Assembly: GCA_961205875.1 (NCBI GenBank)
Contig: OY540810.1
Coordinates: 31,434,001-31,498,000, forward strand
Length of the DNA stretch: 64,000 bases
Origin: Sialis fuliginosa
Taxonomy: Eukaryota; Arthropoda; Insecta; Megaloptera; Sialidae
Reading direction: 5' to 3'
Shown: piece by piece, positions 15,357-63,313 of the stretch
Layout of the letters: each line of letters opens with the position of its first letter
How positions within the stretch are numbered: position 1 is the stretch's first letter
The notes under the pieces: model-generated
What the model saw: the letters and a program-made list of their open reading frames with translations, nothing else
The model's database searches: none
Told to the model about the DNA's origin: nothing
Made by a program: the position numbers and the translations under genes

Positions 15357-18069
15357 TCATTGACATGGCTGGACCGATGATAAGTCAGACATGATGGCTG
15401 AAATTGAATATTTCCTAACAACCGAAACTGATTATGCGCATGCGTCAACGGATGTTCGAAATTTAAATTTATCAAATTGATTTGTTAAATATATAAATAA
15501 ATACATACAAGTTCGATTGTATATCAACTACAATACACTTATTTAACACACGAATACCTGTAATTTATTTGAATTATCAAATAATAACTAAATAAACAAC
15601 CATAGATGCATATTAACTGTCAAATGTGAATAACAATTGAATAAAGAAAATATAGAATCACGTCACATACCTCTAAATTATATTAAAATTTAGTTCAGTG
15701 TTGCGGCTCGCGCATGCGCAAATGGAAACGATACTGTTATAGTACGTCTGGTTCGTGGCAAATAAAGCCAAAAAGCTGCACTTTATGATTGGGGTATGCC
15801 ACTTTCGGTGGTCATATATAAGGTCAAAAGAAACATTTTCAGATAGAGAGCCACTTTAAAATCCGTGTAGAACACCATTATATCGGCTATTAATGATGGC
15901 CCTCGCGGTTTTTATTAAATTGGCTGTATCTCAGCTCCTAATCATCTGATTTCAATTTTCTTTTGTTTATTTTAAAGTTCTTATTAAAAAAAATAGTTTT
16001 TATCATTATTCATTTTTCTCTAAATATTAAGGGTTCCCCACAATTTTCCGAAATCTGAAGATTTCACTTTTCTTACAAACTTAATTGTTATATAACTTTT
16101 TTATTGTGCCCTATATCATTTTTTTACCGCATATAAAAAAGAAAGACATTTTTGTCTACGTTCCATCGATAACAAGATAATACTGTTTTAATTAACAACT
16201 TCTTTGGAAATAGCGTGTTAAACTAAGAAAAATAGATTATTTTTGGATCATTCCATGTCAAGTTTACCTGTATTGGTTTCTCGGATTCGAGATTTTGATG
16301 GAAATGTCCATATATACTTTCCCTGAATCAATTCTGACTATTTTTATCACCATGTCTGTCTGTCTGTCTGTGTGTGTATCTGTTTGTCTGTAAACGTTGT
16401 AACTCAAAAATGACAGTACATAGAGGGGTAAAATTTTATATTTAGGATTAATTTGTTTTAAGAAAGAAAACCTGATTTTTTTAAAACCGGAAACGGATGT
16501 TTACTGTAATTTTTATAATTATTCGAATTATTTCTGAAACGGTACGTGTTGGAAGAAAATGTTTAAAGAAAAATTTGTTTAGAATATTATTATTTATAAT
16601 TTATGTTATGTTCAATTTCTCCTAAAAAAGTTTTTAGGTTATAATCGTTTTTTTCAATTATATTTGAAATGGTTTAAAGCAGAAATAAATCATTGAAATA
16701 AAAGTTGTAGAGTATATTATTTTCTATAGTTTATGTTCCATTAATTTTTTTATATCTCTTACCAATTAAAAAAAAATGTCTTTTTAATTATATTTTTAAT
16801 TTTTTCCATTTTATTTGAACAAGTTCATGACAGAATGAAATGTTCATAACAAAAAATGTAGAGAACGTTATTATCTATAGTTTATGTTCTATTAATTTTT
16901 TTATATCTGTCATCAGTAAGCCAAAATTATTTGTTTTATAATAGTAGATACACGTACATTTTTTTATTGTATAAGAAAGTTCAGTGACATCCATGACAGA
17001 TTTTTCAATTTTTTTACTATGCCATATGAGAAAATTGATCCCAACATAAAATTTCATATGATAAAAGGTAAACTTGACATGGAATGTTCCAAAAATAGTC
17101 TATTTTTCTTAGTTTAACACGATATTTCCAAAGAAGTTGTTAATTAAAACAGTATTATCTTGTTAACAATGGAAAGCAGAATAAAATGTATTTCTTTTTT
17201 ATTTGAAGTAAAAAAATGATATTGGGCACAATAAAAAAGTTATATATAAATTAAGTTCGTAAGAAAAGTAAAATTTTCAGATTTTCTAAAATTGTGGGGA
17301 ACCCTTAAGATTTAGAGAAAAATGTATAATGACAAAAAATAATCTTCTAAATAAGAACTTTAAAACAAGTAAAAGAAAATTGAAATCAGATGACTAGGAG
17401 CTGAGATACAGCCAATTTAATAAAAACGGTGGGGGCCATCTTTAATAGCCGATATAATGATGTTCTACACGGATTTTAAAGTGGCTCCCTATCTGAAAAT
17501 TATTCTTTTAACCTTATCTATGAGCACAGAAAGTGTCATACCCCAATCAAAAAGTGCAGGGTTTTTTTACGTACCAGACGTACTATTAGAAAAAGTATGA
17601 AATTTAGCCATCCGGTTTAATAGTAATTCCATAGGTATCATTGACATGGCTGGACTGATGATAAGTCAAACATGATGGCTGAAATTGAATATTTCCTAAC
17701 AACCGAAACTGATTATGCGCATGCGTCAACGGATGTTCGAAATTTAAATTTATCAAATTGATTTGTTAAATATATAAATAAATACATACAAGTTCGATTG
17801 TATATCAACTACAATACACTTATTTAACACACGAATACCTGTAATTTATTTGAATTATCAAATAATAACTAAATAAACAACCATTGATGCATACTAACTG
17901 TCAAATCTGATTAACAATTGAATAAAGAAACTATAGAAGCACGTCACATACCTCTATATTATATCAAAATTGAGTTCAGTGTTGCGTCTCGCGCATGCGC
18001 ACATGGAAACGATACTGTTAGAAAAAGTATGAAATTTAGCCATCCGGTTTAATAGTAATTCCATAGGTA
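15357..18069 (+). repeat. 432-bp tandem duplication, first copy split by a foldback insertion
   Basis: Unit 1 is 15357-15739 plus 17589-17637; unit 2 is 17638-18069. The 383-bp and 49-bp parts have the same length in both units and differ at few positions. Both contain GCGCATGCG words at the same places. Unit 2 is uninterrupted. Confidence 0.88.
15740..17585. mobile_element. 1,846-bp foldback element with TTA target duplication (Harbinger-like)
   Basis: The termini TAGTACGTCTGGT and ACCAGACGTACTA lead arms of roughly 540 bp (15740-16280 and 17065-17585) that mirror each other, for example TATCGGCTATTAATGATGGC and AACTTCTTTGGAAATA. TTA precedes and follows it, and the empty site in the second duplication unit reads CTGTTAGAAAAAG (18015-18027). 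The central part holds three diverged copies of a 'TTATCTATAGTTTATGTT' block (near 16590, 16715, 16868) and a (GTCT)n microsatellite at 16350. Confidence 0.9.
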
Positions 18070-19022: not shown

Positions 19023-21140
19023 TTCCTCGACTTACGACGGTTCGCACTTACGACCAAAGGCTGCCGGGTAAGCATGCAAAACATGCCTTTACATGGATTT
19101 GGCTGATTATTTTTTTGGAAGTCACATTCTATTAAACATTCAACCTGACCAAATATTAGCTTCCAAAAATTTATAGTTTTCGAAAAAAAAATTTTTTTTG
19201 ATTTTCAAATTCGAATTTGATGGTGCTTGAAATATATTATAGAGGTACTTATGACTCATCAGAGGTAATTTTATTATGATCCTCTGTACATAATAAAGCA
19301 GAAAAAAAAATTAATAAAATTTAAAAAATCAAAAAAAACCATGTTGTCTTCGGAGGGCAATCACAATTTTTTTTATATTATACCTTGTATGTACCCAAAC
19401 AACATATCAAAATCCCAAATTGATACAAAGGGTATAACATACTCGTATAAATTCGCATGCGGTCGTATCGGAGTGGCGCGAGCGTGGCGCAGGCGAGTGC
19501 AAGTGTCTTAATACTTTTAAAATATCTCTAATTTGTTGCTAAACAGGACTGGGCTAGCCCAGAGGTATATTAAAAATTTGACGGGGCCCATAGTCTGACA
19601 AAAACAAAATATAGAGGCCGTAGCCGGGAATATATGGGAACTGCTCCATTGAATTAATTTTACAATTTTTTTCTCATAGGTTGCTTTTTAAGTAACAAAA
19701 AATCACCCCAAATCGCTTAGAAATGTTTATAATCGACTCTAGTAGTAACAAATCACATTTCCGCTGTGAACTAGCGAATCTTCTTCCATTAAAAACTATA
19801 GTCAAGATTTATTTATTTTTTCTAAAAATGATCTGAGCAAAAATGAATATATTGAAGCACAGACATTTAGGGCGATTTAATTTTACTTAAAAAGCAACAT
19901 ATGAGAAAAAAAATTGCAAAATTAATTCAATGGAGCAGTTCCCATATATTCCCGGCTACGGCCTCTATATTTTGTTTTTGTCAGGCTATGGGCCCCGTCA
20001 AATTTTTGATATGCCTCTGGGCTAGCCCAGTCCTGTTTAGCAACAAATTAGAGATATTTTAAAAGTATTAAGACACTTGCACTCGCCCGCGCCATGCTCG
20101 CGCCACTCCGATACGACCGCATGCGAATTTATACGAGTATGTTATACCCTTTGTATCAATTTGGGATTTTGATATGTTGTTTGCATGGGCGCCGGCAGAA
20201 TTTCCTTTAGGGGGGTGCATTCAGATATATGAGATGAAAGTACATACGAAAAAAATGAGTAAAAAAAAAAAAAAGTAATTCGAAACTGCCACGACTAAAA
20301 AAAAATTATTATTATTCACCGAGTGAATTTTTTATTATTTTGCCAGGGGAATGCAAATGTATTAAATTTTAAAATAACAATTGTATTTTTTAATTATTTC
20401 ATTTGCCAGGGGGGTGCAAGTACACCTCCTTGCACCCCCCTCCCGGCGCCCATGGTTGTTTGGGTACATACAAGGTATAATATATAAAAAAATTGTGATT
20501 GCCCTCCGAAGACAACATGGTCTTTTTTGATTTTTTAAATTTTATTAATTTTTTTCTGCTTTATTATGTACAGAGGATCATAATAAAATTATCTCTGATG
20601 AGTCATAAGTACCTCTATAATATATTTCAAGCACCATCAAATTCGAGTGAACGATTATCAAATTTTTTTTCCGAAAACTATAAATTTTTGGAAGCTAATA
20701 TTTGGTCAGGTTGAATGTTTAATAGAATGTGACTTCCAAAAAAATAATCAGCCAAATCCATGTAAAGGCATGTTTTGCATGCTTACCCGGGTACAGCCTT
20801 TATTTTCTTCAGGACTTCTTAAATTCCTCATTAACTTTATTGTACAATAATCCTCAAACACAAATTACAAAATAAATCAAATTCAACAATTGAATCAAAT
20901 AACAACAATCGACAATTATTTATCAACAATTGAACTTTTTGAAAAAAAAACTACGCTGACATGTAAATTAAATAATATAATATGAACCTAACCTATACAT
21001 ATTTTTATTATAATTTTGAATAAAGAATAATAAAGATTGAACTATGAATTTGAATTGTGTATCTAATAATCTTTTTGTTGTTCTTTGTTTTTATTTTATG
21101 AAACTCGACTTACGACCGATCTCGGTCGTAAGTCGAGGAA
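19023..21140. mobile_element. 2.1-kb palindromic element with TA flanks
   Basis: TTCCTCGACTTACGAC at the left and its complement at the right are flanked by TA (19021-19022, 21141-21142). Long arms run 19051-19690 and 19876-20803, about 640 bp each once the nested hAT insertion is removed. Shared words include CATGTTGTCTTCGGAGGGC, CGGTCGTATCGGAGTGGCG and GGGAACTGCTCCATTGAATT. The loop (19691-19875) is unique. The right side has an extra ~300-bp AT-rich segment (20804-21100). Confidence 0.8.
20184..20454. mobile_element. hAT-like miniature element with TSD GTTGTTTG in the palindrome's right arm
   Basis: Ends CATGGGCGCCGGCAG and its mirror CCGGCGCCCATG, with GGGGGGTGCA subterminal blocks on both sides. 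GTTGTTTG flanks it (20176-20183, 20455-20462). The mirrored left arm of the host palindrome keeps the uninterrupted site (near 19393-19405), which proves insertion after palindrome formation. Confidence 0.92.
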
Positions 21141-30254: not shown

Positions 30255-30844
30255 ATGGGGCAGAAAAATATGCCATCAGCTCATGTACTATATAGTACTA
30301 TTTAACTTTAGAAAAAAATTATATTAATTTATATGTATGAAAGTTTTGTATAAAATATAATAATTTAAGAAAATCTTAACTTATTAAGTATTTGGTTATC
30401 CTCTCCCTTAACCTTTTCTGCGAAACCAACCTTTACACAGTATATATAACATGTGTATAAGGTACAATGTACAAGTTCACAGAGCTATGAAATTGAAATA
30501 GGCGTACTCTGTGGAGCGTGTGACACAGACCGGGATAGTTCTGCTCTCTGTACAATATCTGTGAACACCCCCACCACAATGCGAAATAGGACCTTTCGTG
30601 GCGTGTTCATAACCCGAGATATGTTCCTTCTTTAATGAACAACATTGGGAGAAGAAAAATTGTTTTTAATAACTGTGACATCGCGATGTGTTTGGTAGAT
30701 GAAAAGGAATAAATTATAAATGTATGTGGATATTAGATGTTTTTATAGGTGTTTATAGGAATAAATAAGTTGATATCGTTGAAGGCGTAGTTGTTTATAA
30801 GTATTATATTTCTGTTTGTAATAAGATTTCTGTTATTATGTTTA
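30255..30844. other. Unique stretch with a GC-richer patch and a 60-codon frame
   Basis: 30430-30650 is less AT-rich than its surroundings. The plus-strand frame 30453-30635 (MYKVQCTSSQSYEIEIGVLC...) has four cysteines but no recognisable family. Not called as a gene. Confidence 0.25.
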
Positions 30845-30846
30845 TA

Positions 30847-32203
30847 CAGGGTGTCCCAAGACTGTGTCAAAGTTCAATATTTCATTTATTATAACAAATG
30901 GAAGAAAACTTTAAATACAAAAGTTGTTAGGTTAGACAAGCGGCATATTTTAAAAATAGTTATATTTATATAGGGTGTCCCATAAGTGCGTTACAAATCA
31001 AAGTTTTTTTTTAAATACAATGCGTATATTTTTGATTGATAATCTAAAAGCATTTATTTTTCTGGATATTTTGATATAAGCATGTGTAGGTTTATACTGA
31101 GCGGTTTAGAAATTATGACCATTTTTGTATGAAAATTGGGTTATTTTCAACACCTTGTAATTTTCTAATTACAACAAAAAAACTTTTGTTTTCTGCTAAA
31201 AATAATTTTGGCATATGCTCTATTATTGCGATATTACATCAAACATTTACAAAATTGTATTCTTTGTACAGGGTGTATCAAAACTCTGAACTTAACTTTT
31301 TTCAAAATTTTCAAATGGAACACCCTATATATTTTCACATTTTCAAATTGCCTGTTTAATTCTAAATACATTTTATAAACTATGTTCTATACCTAAATCC
31401 AGCCGTTAAAAAGTTTATTTGAAGATTTAATTGAATTTGAATGATAGGTCTTAACCGCCGTTGGTGGACATTTTGAACAAAAAAAATTAACTATTGTGTA
31501 TCATTTTGTTTATTTAATTTCTAGATTTTCATGTTGTTAAAGTTTGTAAGTTCTAGCAAATTGTTTTATGGATAATAATAAAGTTGTATTGTATTTATAA
31601 AACATGTTAAGATTTAAAAAATCTTCAAATAAACTTTTTAACGGCTGGATTTAGGTATAGAACATAGTTTATAAAATGTATTTAGAATTAAACAGGCAAT
31701 TCGAAAATGTGAAAATATATAGACTGTTCCATTTGAAAATTTTGAAAAAAGTTAAGTTCAGAGTTTTGATACACCCTGTACAAAGAATACAATTTTGTAA
31801 ATATTTGATGTAATATCGCAATAATAGAGCATATGCCAAAATTATTTTTAGCATAAAACAAAAGTTTTTTTGTTGTAATTAGAAAATTACAAGGTGTTAA
31901 AAATAACCCAATTTTCTTACAAAAATGGTCATAATTTCTAAACCGCTCAGTATAAACCTACGCATGCTAATATCAAAATATCCAGAAAAATAAATGCTTT
32001 TAGATTATCAATCAAAAATATACGCATTGTATTTAAAAAAACATAACTTTGATTTGTAACGCACTTATGGGACACTCTATATAAATATAACTATTTTTAA
32101 AATATGCCGCTTGTCTAACCTAACAACTTTTGTATTTAAAGTTTTCTTCCATTTGTTATAATAAATGAAATATTGAACTTTGACACAGTCTTGGGACATC
32201 CTG
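30847..32203. mobile_element. 1,357-bp foldback element with ~580-bp arms (mariner-type ends)
   Basis: CAGGGTGTCCCAAGACTGTG and its near-mirror at the right are flanked by TA (30845-30846, 32204-32205). The arms 30847-31428 and 31620-32203 match closely throughout. Each arm contains two further internal ends (TATAGGGTGTCCCATAAGTG at about 30971 and TACAGGGTGTATCAAAACTC at 31267), so the arm itself is a mosaic of mariner-type termini. The loop is ~190 bp. Confidence 0.9.
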
Positions 32204-32292
32204 TATGTATACTATTATTAATTTATTATTTTTCTTAATGTTTTATAGTACATTCCATTTATTACTAATTCTAATTCATTTTAAAACTTTTA

Positions 32293-37611: not shown

Positions 37612-38402
37612 CCACAAAAAATATACCTTTTCAACTTCAAATTGAGACTAATCAATTTCAAATTGGGAATAATCAAATTCAAATTGGGAATAATCAATTT
37701 CATATTGGGAATAATCAATTTCAAATTGAGACTAAACAATTTCAAATTGGGAATAATCAATTGCAAAGTGAAGTTGATTGTTCCCAATTTGAAAATGTTT
37801 AGTCTCAATTTGAAATTGATTATTCCCAATATGAAATTGTTTAGTCTCAATTTGAAATTGATTATTCCCAATTTGAAATTGATTAGTCTCAATTCGAAGT
37901 TGAAAAGGTATAGTACTGTTCTCTTAACCGTATTTTACGTATTTTTTAGGTACTAACCCCCCAAATTGTAACGTCAAAAATAGAGAAATTATATCAATTT
38001 TGATCTTTAACGAATAATTTGTAGATTAGACTATTTTCTTCAAAAAAACCTCACTAACCCCATAAATTTTTTACTGGTCATAAAAAATAGCAAAAAATTT
38101 AAAAATTTATATCAATTTTAACTAAATTTAACGAATGATTTGTAGATTAGAATTTTTTCTTCAATTTTTATCAGCTGTTTTTGATCAAACTGGTCGTACA
38201 ACGATATAATATAAAAGTCTAATTTACAAAATTCATTAGGTTTACTCATAAAAAACTTATTATAGCTCGTAGGGACTCTCAAAATTGATATAATTTTCTA
38301 TTTTAGTAGTAAAACATTTTGGGAGTAAAATTATCGAATTCGTTTTCAAAAATACGCAAAAAAACATAGTCTGGTTAATAGAACAATACTTTTTTTGTGG
38401 AT
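37612..38402. mobile_element. Element with CCACAAAAAA ends, hosting the minisatellite palindrome
   Basis: The left end, once 37624-37910 and one flanking TA are removed, reads CCACAAAAAATA followed by GTACTGTTCTCTTAACC. The right end is the complement of CCACAAAAAAAGTATTGTTC then TATTAACC. The ends match only if the palindrome is treated as an insertion. The interior has internally repeated TTATATCAATTTT...TTTGTAGATTAGA blocks (37990 and 38107). Confidence 0.65.
37624..37910. repeat. Palindromic 21-bp minisatellite, open on both strands
   Basis: TACCTTTTCAACTTC at the left is mirrored at the right, with TA on both outer sides. Each arm is made of about six 21-bp units of the type TCAATTTCAAATTGGGAATAA, alternating with units containing GAGACTAA. 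As 21 is divisible by three, both strands are open: a plus frame at 37642-37956 and a minus frame at 37593-37892, encoding INFKLG-type and LIIPNLK-type heptads. I read it as a foldback repeat; a protein product is unproven. Confidence 0.85.
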
Positions 38403-39653: not shown

Positions 39654-40550
39654 TTTTGCTTCCTCGCAATATCAAAGATACGAGAAGCTTTATGATCATT
39701 TTAAAATGAAACAAAAAACATCTGCCAAGTAAATGCACAGTGCTTCCTCGTGCTAAATTCACTAAAACCGATAGTGTTCAGATAAATTGCCTGGCATTGG
39801 TTAACCATTTAATTTTTATACAAATTTTACTAAAAAATCTTAGTTCCAATTTTTTCTTAAAACGCACCTGAATATTTTTTCATATATTTTTAATTTTTTG
39901 ACAATTTCAATCTAAATCTAAATTTATGCAAATGTCAAAATGACATTTAAAACGTCAAAGTGACATTTAAAACGCCAAAGTGACATTTAAAACGTCAAAA
40001 TGACACTTAATATATCCAATCAAATATCAATTTAGAAAAACAAAACACGAATTTTTAAAATTAATTTAGATAAATCTTTGTAAGGGAATATTTTACAACA
40101 AACGTAGTAGACCCATATTATAGGAAATTTAATTCTCTACAAAAAATATTCTATAAAATTTTCTCGTAACGTGTGTCGTTCTTGAGATATCTTGAAAAAA
40201 TAAAAATTTTGGGGTGTCACCTCTCCCCCTTACACACGATTTTGATGATTTTGAAATGGGACCGTCCTCAAACCAAACCCAACCATCCGACAAAGTTTCA
40301 ATAAAATCGGTTCAGTGGTTCGTGAGTTATGCGTGTGACAAGGATTTAGGGGACAGACGGACGGACGGACGGACGGACACACGGACACACGGACACACGC
40401 ACAGACAGACAGACACGGAACGAAAAGTGTTTGTCTTGACGTGAAACGGATAAATAAATTTAAAATTTTGAAATTGGAGAACTTTTTTTTTGTCTCAATC
40501 TCAAACGATCACATAGCTTCTCGTATCTTCGATATTGCGAGGAAGCAAAA
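39654..40550 (+). mobile_element. Family A, most complete copy A5, with ~60-bp terminal inverted repeats
   Basis: TTTTGCTTCCTCGCAATATC continuing to GAGAAGCTTTATGATCA is mirrored at the right end (GATCACATAGCTTC...GCGAGGAAGCAAAA). Inside are four units of a 20-bp repeat (39934-40013) and a (GGAC)n/(CACGGA)n microsatellite (40349-40417). The superfamily is unclear: long inverted repeats could suit a Mutator-like element, but I see only a weak TGATAT/TGGTAT flank. The 76-codon frame at 40214-40444 spans the microsatellite and recurs in other copies; I see no evidence it is a gene. Confidence 0.8.
39934..40013 (+). repeat. 20-bp minisatellite, four units
   Basis: GTCAAAATGACATTTAAAAC is repeated four times with small changes. 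The same site holds three units in copy A8 (52426-52485) and one in A3 (35046-35065), so the array expanded or contracted between copies. Confidence 0.9.
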
Positions 40551-40552
40551 TG

Positions 40553-41192
40553 GTATTCCGATTTAAAAATTTTAAATTGATCTTTCCGTTTCAGGTCAAG
40601 ACAAACACTTTTCGTTCCGTGTCTGTTTGTCTGTCGAGTGAATCCTTGTCACACGTATATTTCATGAACCACTGAACCGATATTAATGGAACTTGGTTGA
40701 ATGGTTTGGTCTGACTTGAGGACGGTCCCATTTCAGAATCATCAAAATCGTGTGTAAGGGGGAGGAGTGACATCCCAAAATATTTATTTTTTCAAGATAT
40801 ATCATAGAATTTTTTTTTGTAGAGCATTCAATTTCCTATAATATACGTCTACAACGTTTGTTGTAAAATATTTCCTTATAAAGATTTATCTCAATTTGCT
40901 TTAAAAAAATCGTTATTTGTTTTTTTTTAAACTGATATTTACTTTGACATATTTTTAGATTTATTTAGTTTAAAATTGTCAAAAAATAAAAAATTTACGA
41001 AAAAAAATAATCAGGTACCTTCGTCTTAAGAAAAGTTTCGAACTAATATTTTTTAGTAAAATTATATAAAAATTAAATGGTTAACCAATGCTAAATTTAT
41101 CTGAATACTTTCGGATTTTATTTAATAATAAACTACCTTTGCTGAATTTAGCACGAAGAAGCACTCTGCATTTACTTGGCAGATGTTTTTTA
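40553..41192 (-). repeat. Family A copy A6, inverted and adjacent to A5
   Basis: Reverse orientation, running from 'TTAAATTGATCTTTCCGTTTC' to the shared end TTACTTGGCAGATGTTTTT. It lacks the outer ~90 bp on its 40553 side. With A5 it makes a ~640-bp tail-to-tail inverted repeat. Confidence 0.9.
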
Positions 41193-52980: not shown

Positions 52981-53193
52981 ATTTAAAAAAATTTATTGTT
53001 TGCATTTTCTGAAAAATTATAGTTTTAAGAATAAGCCTACCAAAAATTAATAAAATAATAAATTTGTCAAATTTGTGATTTTTCGGTACCAAAAAGAAAT
53101 TAACACATTCATTCATCATCATTTAGTAGAAAATTGAAATTTTGAAAAATTCATAAGCTTAATGAAAGCTATAAATACTTACATATATTTATA

Positions 53194-53582
53194 CAGTGTA
53201 TTCCAAGTTGATTAAACCATAGGAAATTTAACATAGGGACAATTATAAGTGTTGTAGTAACCTTTGATTGAATTTAACGATGTGTCATTGGTGCAATTTG
53301 AAATGCCGCCTCGAATCTAACTGATAAATTTTAAATTAATCAACAGTATTTTGTTCTCAACTTTAATTTCATTAATTTAAGCATCCTAGATAAAATTATA
53401 ATAATATTTTTTGGCAGATATAAATTTGAAAACAAAATACTAATTACAATTTTATTAAATTTTGTGGCGGCATTTCAAAATGCACCAATGACACATCGTT
53501 AAATTCGATCAAAGGCTACTACAACACTTCTAATTGTCCCCATGTTAAATTTCCTATGGCTTAATCAACTTGGAATACACTG
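53194..53582. mobile_element. 389-bp mariner-type palindromic element
   Basis: CAGTGTATTCCAAGTTGATT mirrors the right end exactly over more than 20 bases; TA lies outside both ends (53192-53193, 53583-53584). The arms (~150 bp) include CCATAGGAAATTTAACAT, CGATGTGTCATTGGTGCA and TTTGAAATGCCGCC. Inner ATTAATCAACAGTATTTTG and its partner extend the symmetry. Confidence 0.9.
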
Positions 53583-53684
53583 TATATATCATTTAAAAGA
53601 CAGGCGTTTTTTTTTAAATTTATTGGCATTCTTCTCTACAAAATCAGCTATCTAATTGTCTTTAAATGTTGTTTCTTCTTCCAG

Positions 53685-60688: not shown

Positions 60689-60824
60689 TAGAAGTGGGCG
60701 AATTCGAATGTTTCATTCGAATAACTCGATATGTATTCGATTGTGAAAACTATATAGAATTTTTAATTCGAATGATTTTAGTCATTCGAATGATATTCTA
60801 AGTAAATATATATACAAGGTGTCC

Positions 60825-61023
60825 CGTAAACATAGGTACCGACAAACTTTCAGGAGTTGTTGAGGACATTGAAATAATCGCTTTTTGTTAATAAATGTTT
60901 AATTTTGTTAACAAATGAGTCGTTATATCAGTAGAACACAAGAAAGGACTCCATAGAAAAAAAAAAAATTTCAAGGTTTGGACAACTCTTGAAAGTTTGT
61001 CGATATGTTTACGAGGCACCCTG
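60825..61023. mobile_element. 199-bp mariner-type element with TA flanks
   Basis: CAAGGTGTCCCGTAAACATA at the left pairs with 'TATGTTTACGAGGCACCCTG' at the right; CGACAAACTTTCAGGAGTTG continues the symmetry. TA lies outside both ends (60823-60824, 61024-61025). Confidence 0.85.
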
Positions 61024-61145
61024 TATCAATTGACAACTTATTTCAATTTCATTAAAATTCGTTACATTAAATTTTTCCTTGTCATAAAATAATACAATTA
61101 CAATTAGAAATTTACAGACTATGAGAACACCGGACAACGAATATA

Positions 61146-61991
61146 CAGTGCGTTCACGATGAAAGGAACAAATTCGTTTAAAATTCAGGTAATTATTTTG
61201 TGGAAAAACGCTCGGACCCGTCGATTAGTATTTTTAGTTGTGGATTTTTTGACATAAGAAAATTGTATACAGGGTGTCTGAAGAAGAACATATGCAGTCA
61301 TCATTGATTTTTTTAAATGGAACACCCTATATATTATACCATTTTTGAATTGTACGCTAAATTCTGAACACTTTTTGTACAGTATATCATATCTCTAAAT
61401 TCAGTGGTTTTTGGAATAATGACGTTTGAAAATTGACATTTTGAAATACACACAAGTCAAATAAAATGTTTAAATTGAAAAAATAAACTTTGAACATTTT
61501 TTTAAAAGCCAACAAAAACATCCTGGTATTGCAAAAAAAAGAAAAAAAGAAGAAAAAAAAGAAAAAAAAAAGTTTAATGTTTTTTCTTTTTTTTTCTTCT
61601 TTTTTTCTTTTTTTTGCAATACCAGGATGTTTTTGTTGGCTTTTAAAAATTTATTTTTTCAATTTAAACATTTTATTTGACTTGTGTGTATTTCAAAATG
61701 TCAATTTTCAAACGTCATTATTCCAAAAACCACTGATTTTAGAGATATGATATACTGTACAAAAAGTGTTCAGAATTTATCGCACAATTCAAAAATGGTA
61801 TAATGTATAGGGTGTTCCATTTAAAAAAATCAATGATGACTGCATATGTTCTTCTTCAGACACCCTGTATACAATTTTCTTATGTCAAAAAATCCACAAC
61901 TAAAAATATAAATCGACGGGTCCGAGCGTTTTTCCACAAAATAATTACCTGAATTTTAAACGAATTTGTTCCTTTCATCGTGAACGCACTG
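61146..61991. mobile_element. 846-bp near-perfect hairpin (mariner-type ends)
   Basis: CAGTGCGTTCACGATGAAAG and its mirror are flanked by TA (61144-61145, 61992-61993). The two ~420-bp arms match almost base for base, including a second set of ends (TACAGGGTGTCTGAAGAAGA at 61269), down to a purine tract (A/G, 61531-61572) facing its pyrimidine complement (61580-61617). The loop is about a dozen bases near 61573. A long open frame here is a by-product of the purine tract. Confidence 0.93.
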
Positions 61992-62274
61992 TATATTCGA
62001 ATGATGAATGATAATTCGATTATAGAATTCAAAATCATTCGAATATTTATATTCTTCACTCTTTCAACAATCGCGCACCTCTAATGTGAACAAGTTGTAA
62101 TAGTCTTTCGTTTACGTTATGTAGAACTGGTTATTTTATGTTCCTAGTAATTTTATTTTTTTCAAACCACCGCGCCGGGGATATAATAGACAAGTACCCG
62201 TACTTTAAGTAGGTATAGAGGGCTCTGATCATTAAGAATATAATAATATAACCATATTCATTTTTATTTTTATA

Positions 62275-62280
62275 TTTATT
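62275..62280 (-). promoter_or_regulatory. Candidate polyadenylation signal of the transporter gene
   Basis: AATAAA on the minus strand lies 74 bp beyond the TAA stop, within an AT-rich stretch. Position and sequence fit a normal cleavage signal. AT-rich DNA yields this hexamer often, so the call rests mainly on position. Confidence 0.5.
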
Positions 62281-62353: not shown

Positions 62354-63313
62354 TTAAACTTCAGTTGTTAATTTTTCTGTTGTATCATCACACACTTGTT
62401 TAGGAGTGATATTTTTCCAAAACACCAAATACGTATAAATAACACTCCCCAAAACACCGAAATTAAGACCAATAAAATTAATCCATGTAAAAATATAATC
62501 ACCTCCAACGAACATCCCCACATAAGTGACACAAATGTTCTTAATCGATCCTATTATATTCACTGTTAATGCCGAATTATAATCAGTGCAAGTTATCATC
62601 GAATAACTCAACAAAAATCCCATAAAACAGGATATTAAAAAATAAAATAGAAATGTGGCAGTCCATTCTTCGAAATTCCAAGCACTTTTCAAATCTCCCG
62701 AAACAACAGCAAGTAGTAAAGTTGGAAAGAACACTAGCAATGAATTATAAAACATCAGTCCGTACTTTTCAAGTTCTCCCGAAGTCATTTTTCTCTTAAT
62801 TAAAATACTATTAACAGCCGTAAATAAGTTATTTGAAAACACATACACGTATCCGACTAAATCAAATGTTAAGTCGTTCATTGCAGCTACCAAAGCTCCC
62901 AATATCATCAGATAAACACTTATCTCAACTCTGTAATCCGATTCGAGTCCTAATATGTAATATTCACCAACCATGGTCATCCAAATTGCAAATCTTCTTA
63001 GCGCGGTAAACATTGGCAAACTCAATTGTTGCGTCGATCCTAATCCGAATACCATATTCCCAAAGTACAGTAAAGGTAACGGCCATATCTTCTTCAATAT
63101 ACCTCTATTAAACGGTGGATAGTCAATAAAATTTAATTTCTTCAACAAGTATATAAATACAATCGTAACTGCTATCTGACCAAGACCTAAAACTTGAAAC
63201 GACGCAAACTTGAACGACGTTAAAACAATTTTATTGACTACCGTTAAAAGGAATGACGAAACACCAAAAAGCACGGCTGATGATATCTGTTTAAACAGTA
63301 ATGACTTTTCCAT
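62354..63313 (-). CDS. SLC35D-type nucleotide-sugar transporter (UDP-sugar transporter, fringe-connection/UST74c-like)
   Basis: This encodes a 319-residue polytopic membrane protein resembling SLC35D1/SLC35D2 and insect fringe connection, which import UDP-sugars into the Golgi/ER in exchange for UMP. Visible landmarks are FGVSSFLLTVVNKIVLTSF (16-34), the GLGQ motif (43-46), LPLLYFGNMVFGLGSTQQLS (79-98), LPMFTALRRF (99-108), DLTFDLVGY (147-155) and the conserved C-terminal block NSALTVNIIGSIKNICVTYV with GGDYIFTWINFIGLN (246-284). About ten hydrophobic segments run from residue 11 to 298, followed by a short polar tail. The start is well supported: an in-frame TAA ends 7 nt upstream, A lies at -3 and G at +4. 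Family members are usually 320-370 residues, so this is complete with a short N-terminus. It has no intron, while related genes as I know them are commonly split, so it may be a retrocopy or an intron-losing lineage. Sugar specificity cannot be read from sequence. Confidence 0.93.
   Translation of the reverse strand: MEKSLLFKQISSAVLFGVSSFLLTVVNKIVLTSFKFASFQVLGLGQIAVTIVFIYLLKKLNFIDYPPFNRGILKKIWPLPLLYFGNMVFGLGSTQQLSLPMFTALRRFAIWMTMVGEYYILGLESDYRVEISVYLMILGALVAAMNDLTFDLVGYVYVFSNNLFTAVNSILIKRKMTSGELEKYGLMFYNSLLVFFPTLLLAVVSGDLKSAWNFEEWTATFLFYFLISCFMGFLLSYSMITCTDYNSALTVNIIGSIKNICVTYVGMFVGGDYIFTWINFIGLNFGVLGSVIYTYLVFWKNITPKQVCDDTTEKLTTEV

Follow-up and report, generated by a model that had tools for sequence, protein, structure and literature searches.

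Long palindromes with almost no loop are expected to be unstable. The 64-kb window analysed here (the whole stretch of Sialis fuliginosa DNA under study, to which all plain coordinates refer) holds one of 846 bp beside a transporter gene, and it raises the question of whether such symmetry was formed and held at this locus, whether it serves the host as a source of double-stranded RNA, or whether it was brought in as a finished structure. The last answer is the one that we favour: with a probability of about 0.9, we are dealing with a single copy of an abundant long-arm (foldback-like) MITE of the Tc1/mariner type, which codes for nothing and duplicates TA at its target.

Geometry and predicted fold of the palindrome

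An earlier note on this DNA had described a near-perfect, almost loop-free palindrome of 846 bp at 61146-61991; both the coordinates and the length are exact, and only 11 nt separate the arms. The pairing falls into two ungapped blocks, one joining 61138-61494 to 61643-61999 (357 nt, 98% complementary, the outermost 8 bases on each side being flank) and the other joining 61499-61568 to 61580-61649 (70 nt, 97% complementary). In a gapped alignment left and right arm are identical at 415 of 440 positions (94%, with 14 gap positions), and the main regions of mismatch are 11 nt found only in the left arm and a purine/pyrimidine tract at the centre. The inverted repeats constitute nearly the whole element, a foldback-like feature, and a scan of the six frames of the window copy found no stop-free run longer than 87 codons. 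The features of the locus are as follows:

61144-61145, no strand: left TA of the target-site duplication (TA/TA in 61 of 62 copies; empty sites with a single TA)
61146-61991, no strand: whole element, long-arm palindromic MITE, 846 bp (inverted repeat; same ends in hundreds of copies; no frame above 87 codons)
61146-61568, plus strand: left arm (inverted-repeat detection and arm alignment)
61488-61498, plus strand: 11 nt of the left arm that the right arm lacks; copies L009 and L010 have the same deletion in their right arms (arm alignment)
61569-61579, no strand: central unpaired spacer, 11 nt, containing all or part of the family motif GTTYAATG
61580-61991, minus strand: right arm, without 11 nt of the left arm (inverted-repeat detection and arm alignment)
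61992-61993, no strand: right TA of the target-site duplication (same basis as the left TA)
62263-62280, minus strand: a pair of AATAAA hexamers resembling polyadenylation signals, 74 and 86 nt beyond the stop codon of the transporter, in the interval between gene and palindrome (consensus match only)
62354-63313, minus strand: transporter ORF, 319 aa, triose-phosphate transporter family, with a PDB match to a GDP-mannose transporter; outside the element

The RNA of the element is predicted to fold into one hairpin of −635 kcal/mol, against a mean of −149 kcal/mol for 20 shuffled controls, none of which was as low; the expectation that transcription through the palindrome would yield a long dsRNA hairpin is supported by this predicted fold.

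Long inverted repeats are also found elsewhere in the window: a scan for arms of 60 nt or more, no further than 3 kb apart, detected 30 pairs, several of them overlapping. Those at 30844-32206, 19064-20790, 15770-17565, 53187-53589, 40052-40907 and 37622-37912 include several of 98-99% complementarity, so that mirror-image elements are common in this stretch. Just upstream of the palindrome, at 60811-61027, lies a further inverted repeat; it is imperfect, its ends resemble TATACAAGGTGTCCCGTAAAC, and it looks like another small element of this kind. Within each arm (at 61266-61331 on the left and at the mirrored place on the right) a pair ACAGGGTGTCT...AACACCCTATA resembles, by eye, the remnant of yet another inverted-repeat element; its occurrence in both arms suggests that it predates the doubling of the arms, or that it was copied from one arm to the other.

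A family with defined ends and TA flanks

The genome from which the window comes (392 Mb, 20 contigs) was searched with each half of the palindrome, giving at least 85 matches to the left arm (40 of 912 candidates scored) and at least 87 to the right half (40 of 906 candidates scored). The 33-nt end of the element (CAGTGCGTTCACGATGAAAGG...) was found, with up to 3 mismatches, 489 times in forward and 473 times in reverse orientation, while the control with the reversed pattern gave 0 and 0; from these numbers we estimate about 480 two-ended copies in the genome. The only copy in the window is the one at 61146-61991, and scans for the exact ends gave 0 matches in viral contigs and 0 in bacterial/archaeal genomes.

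Two sets of copies were read: 40 loci picked by similarity to the window arm (the window copy included), and 27 exact-end pairs on contig C1, picked by their ends alone. Both ends were present, 500-1700 bp apart, in 62 of these 67 copies, and in 61 of the 62 there is a TA on both flanks, with a preference for TATATA. Because the C1 copies were selected with TA in the search pattern, TA is no independent evidence there; the set picked by similarity is free of this bias. In an empty-site comparison the two flanks of each of 55 copies were joined, one TA being removed, and matched to the window and to the genome loci that had been read; 14 spanning matches resulted, from 3 of the 55 copies. Junction alignments for 8 of the 14 comprise six that are ungapped with a single TA (L025 against four related repeats, L044 against two) and two that are gapped (L025 and L087, each against window sequence). 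Flanks of TA/TA together with clean empty-site junctions point to a target-site duplication of TA, as in Tc1/mariner elements, of which it is a known trait. A longer duplication, TATA, was considered and rejected: the flanks agree over 4 bp in 47 of the 62 two-ended copies (over 2 bp only in 14, and not at all in 1), yet the junction alignments fit just one extra TA.

The ends of the element read CAGTG, and transposase-bearing elements of the same genome likewise end in CAGT; termini of this type are typical of Tc1-like elements. A DDE_3 profile gave 454 candidate places in the genome, of which 150 were scored, and among the 33 loci read from these none has the ends of the element around its transposase. 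At one of them, L053, a 3-mismatch end match lies on either side (at 291 and 3133), outside the different inverted repeats of that locus, and among three further DDE_3 loci the nearest ends are those of L108 (TACAGTCTGTTCAA, 3 mismatches in 14). A Transposase_1 profile gave 150 scored places, used by their listed position; when the C1 places of both profiles were compared by eye with 100 listed C1 ends (of the 962), one, C1:33199678, was within 3 kb of an end, on its outer side. With no transposase bearing these ends found at the 33 loci, it is the TA duplication and the CAGT termini that carry the superfamily assignment.

Of 52 copies, 48 showed the spacer motif GTTYAATG, 23 of them in plus and 25 in minus orientation (the other 4 were unreadable), so that copies can be given an orientation. 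Copy L012 (C4:32915800-32919200) carries four consecutive arms with outer ends 1628 bp apart, and resembles two elements fused with a truncated junction.

We infer that the ends common to the copies were recognised in trans by a transposase of the Tc1/mariner type, which moved the element by cut and paste. Mirror symmetry is a property of the family and arrived with the transposon, so that youth of the palindrome, one of the two options in the earlier note, can be dispensed with as an explanation.

The neighbouring transporter

The gap of 363 bp that had been claimed between the palindrome and the end of the transporter's stop codon is exact, and the palindrome lies on the side toward which the minus-strand ORF is transcribed. 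These facts, with a predicted fold that would make an excellent Dicer substrate and with long inverted-repeat transcripts being a recognised source of insect siRNAs (PMC4423592), are the attraction of the best-surviving alternative: that this is a host hairpin-RNA locus, whose transcripts, started at a promoter of its own or reaching it by read-through from the transporter, would be diced to siRNAs, a function for which the palindrome would be maintained. We consider it improbable, because with hundreds of copies dispersed in the genome nothing singles out this one, and because the AATAAA hexamers come before the palindrome. All three of them do so, a third lying 197 nt past the stop, and routine read-through of the transporter, a possible source of dsRNA, is thereby less likely by default. 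Given several hundred copies of the same element, the site beside the transporter is most likely a chance, ordinary insertion and no dedicated RNA-silencing locus. A transposon copy could still act as an incidental source of siRNAs, which would be compatible with the MITE reading and with the hairpin-RNA alternative alike.

Divergence and re-matching of the arms

Arms were compared in a sample of 52 full-length copies (30 of the 40 picked by similarity and 22 of the 27 picked by ends), the other 15 being excluded because an end was missing or because they fell outside the range of 780-900 bp. The mean arm-to-arm distance is 0.0270 within copies and 0.0400 between copies, and none of 5000 random re-pairings gave a value as low as that observed within copies, in either set or in both combined. 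This result could reflect subfamily ancestors with matched arms alone, and a sharper test was therefore made with alleles present on exactly two arms. Ten of 42 such alleles occupy both arms of one copy (7 copies in all), where random pairing would give a mean of 0.38 and at most 4 in 5000 runs; of the rest, 17 occupy corresponding sides in two copies and 8 opposite sides, while 7 are undecided. "One copy" is here relative to the 52 copies sampled out of about 480. At 12 diagnostic columns, with gaps set aside, 17 of the 52 copies have no difference between their arms, and these 17 span 11 different haplotypes.

Judging from these allele patterns, re-matching of arms does occur in the family, repeatedly but incompletely and not in every copy; of the earlier proposal that such a palindrome is either young or kept by gene conversion, it is the second half that finds support, at the level of the family. 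Just 14 of the 52 copies have no arm closer to either arm than its own partner is, and lineages with unlike arms hold their left/right order once oriented by the spacer (L013, L014 and L045; L024, L027, L038 and L099), which argues against strong concerted evolution. The family has many copies, defined ends, a TA duplication with a preference for TATATA, and unlike-arm forms that are inherited as whole elements. Arm-to-arm copying, by gene conversion or by template switching between the arms of a hairpin, would have re-matched arms repeatedly and incompletely, and transposition would then have dispersed both matched and unmatched forms. As a separate observation, 10 of the 12 copies with at least 5 arm differences and a readable spacer have the minus orientation relative to their contigs, a skew that is probably due to chance.

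In the window copy, 6 substitutions and an 11-nt gap distinguish one arm from the other over 415 nt (distance 0.0175). Within the 52-copy sample, 5017 of 5304 between-copy arm pairs (~95%) are further apart than this and 287 are as close, and among the 102 other arms one is closer to the left arm than its own partner, while one is closer to the right arm and one more is equal. Sister copies outside that sample are closer still to the left arm, with 2 mismatches in 407 for L010 and 3 in 415 for L009. The right arm has 6 mismatches in 411 to its own left arm and 9 in 363 to the right arm of L010, and its 11-nt deletion is common to L009 and L010, both elsewhere on the contig. From the shared deletion it follows that the unlike-arm form predates these insertions; and because L009 and L010 resemble the left arm more than its partner does, there can have been no full re-matching after the separation of those copies. 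Among the grounds on which the earlier note would have given up its reading are arms no more alike than any two copies of the family; this holds for the sister copies alone and not for the sampled pairs, so that the evidence at this locus is mixed.

That some exchange between arms took place in the sublineage of the window copy and L010 is likely, in view of the marker TACGCTA, which is in both arms of L010 and in the left arm alone of the window copy, and of the mismatches between the two copies, which number 9 in 363 for the right arms and fewer, 2 in 407, for the left. At this locus some conversion may also have followed the insertion, though only in part of the arms.

The same comparisons bear on the idea that an inverted duplication formed at this very place, its symmetry being held since by arm-to-arm conversion. 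The resemblance of the window arms, beyond that of ~95% of between-copy pairs, would agree with it, as would the greater closeness of the right arm to its own partner than to its counterpart in L010; we nevertheless regard it as very unlikely, for palindromes that share these ends and have TA on both sides are found throughout the genome, the left arm is nearer to L009 and L010 than to its partner, and an origin specific to this locus is contradicted by those genome-wide copies together with the shared deletion. Least credible of all is an assembly artefact in which one arm was copied or inverted by the assembler: long palindromes are presumably hard to sequence, but the arms differ at specific sites and by the 11-nt indel, these markers recur in other copies, and the form itself recurs with precise ends and TA flanks.

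Relation to known elements

The element has parallels in other systems. Aphid LTIR mariner-like elements and their MITEs, such as MITE5.1, have a TA duplication, TIRs of ~460 bp, MITE lengths of 790-822 bp and no coding capacity (PMC5490172). The Sialis element is like these MITEs in its duplication, long TIRs, similar size and lack of coding sequence; it differs in that the TIR sequences listed there are unlike its end, in that 5 copies are reported for MITE5.1 as against hundreds, and in that the aphid TIRs are said to show no palindromic motifs (PMC5490172). Non-autonomous copies of the foldback-type elements Tetris (PMC4079207) and Galileo (PMC3573991) consist mostly of two long inverted repeats, as does the Sialis element, whereas their duplications are of 8-10 bp in Tetris (PMC4079207) and of 7 bp in Galileo, a member of the P superfamily (PMC3573991), instead of TA. 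Chimeric Galileo copies with unlike TIRs are described (PMC3573991), and in Tetris the repeats group within two of three copies, which is read there as possible homogenisation (PMC4079207). MITEs derived from Bari are non-autonomous, mobilised in trans and of the Tc1/mariner superfamily, the one that we assign to the Sialis element, with the difference that the inverted repeats of Bari1 are of 26 bp and the Sialis arms of ~415 bp (PMC8834629). Template switching between inverted repeats homogenises their arms and can invert the spacer (PMC8604942); it is the process proposed here for the re-matching of arms, described in that source for short repeats in yeast coding DNA, with no mobile element.

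Among the papers listed by literature searches no title or abstract describes this palindromic element, and an exact-phrase search for palindromic MITE returned one paper, which is unrelated. The family is a TA-flanked, long-arm, foldback-like MITE of a familiar type, and the locus itself is an ordinary, well-formed insertion of it: a caution that a striking hairpin next to a gene can be a routine transposon insertion. What deserves further study is that arms in this family have been re-matched repeatedly but never throughout. A tentative idea, which we hold to be rather doubtful in its full form, is that the two arms of this high-copy palindromic MITE evolve in concert. When elements transpose or are repaired, a hairpin or template switching would let one arm serve again and again as the template for its partner, and many matched-arm haplotypes would arise beside unlike-arm hybrids; the palindrome would in this way be regenerated and not just passed on, and hundreds of dispersed hairpins might stand ready as a supply of dsRNA. 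With hundreds of surviving end pairs, and with arms that can be compared within each copy, the family provides a natural experiment on the loss, exchange and re-matching of palindromes in a eukaryotic genome.
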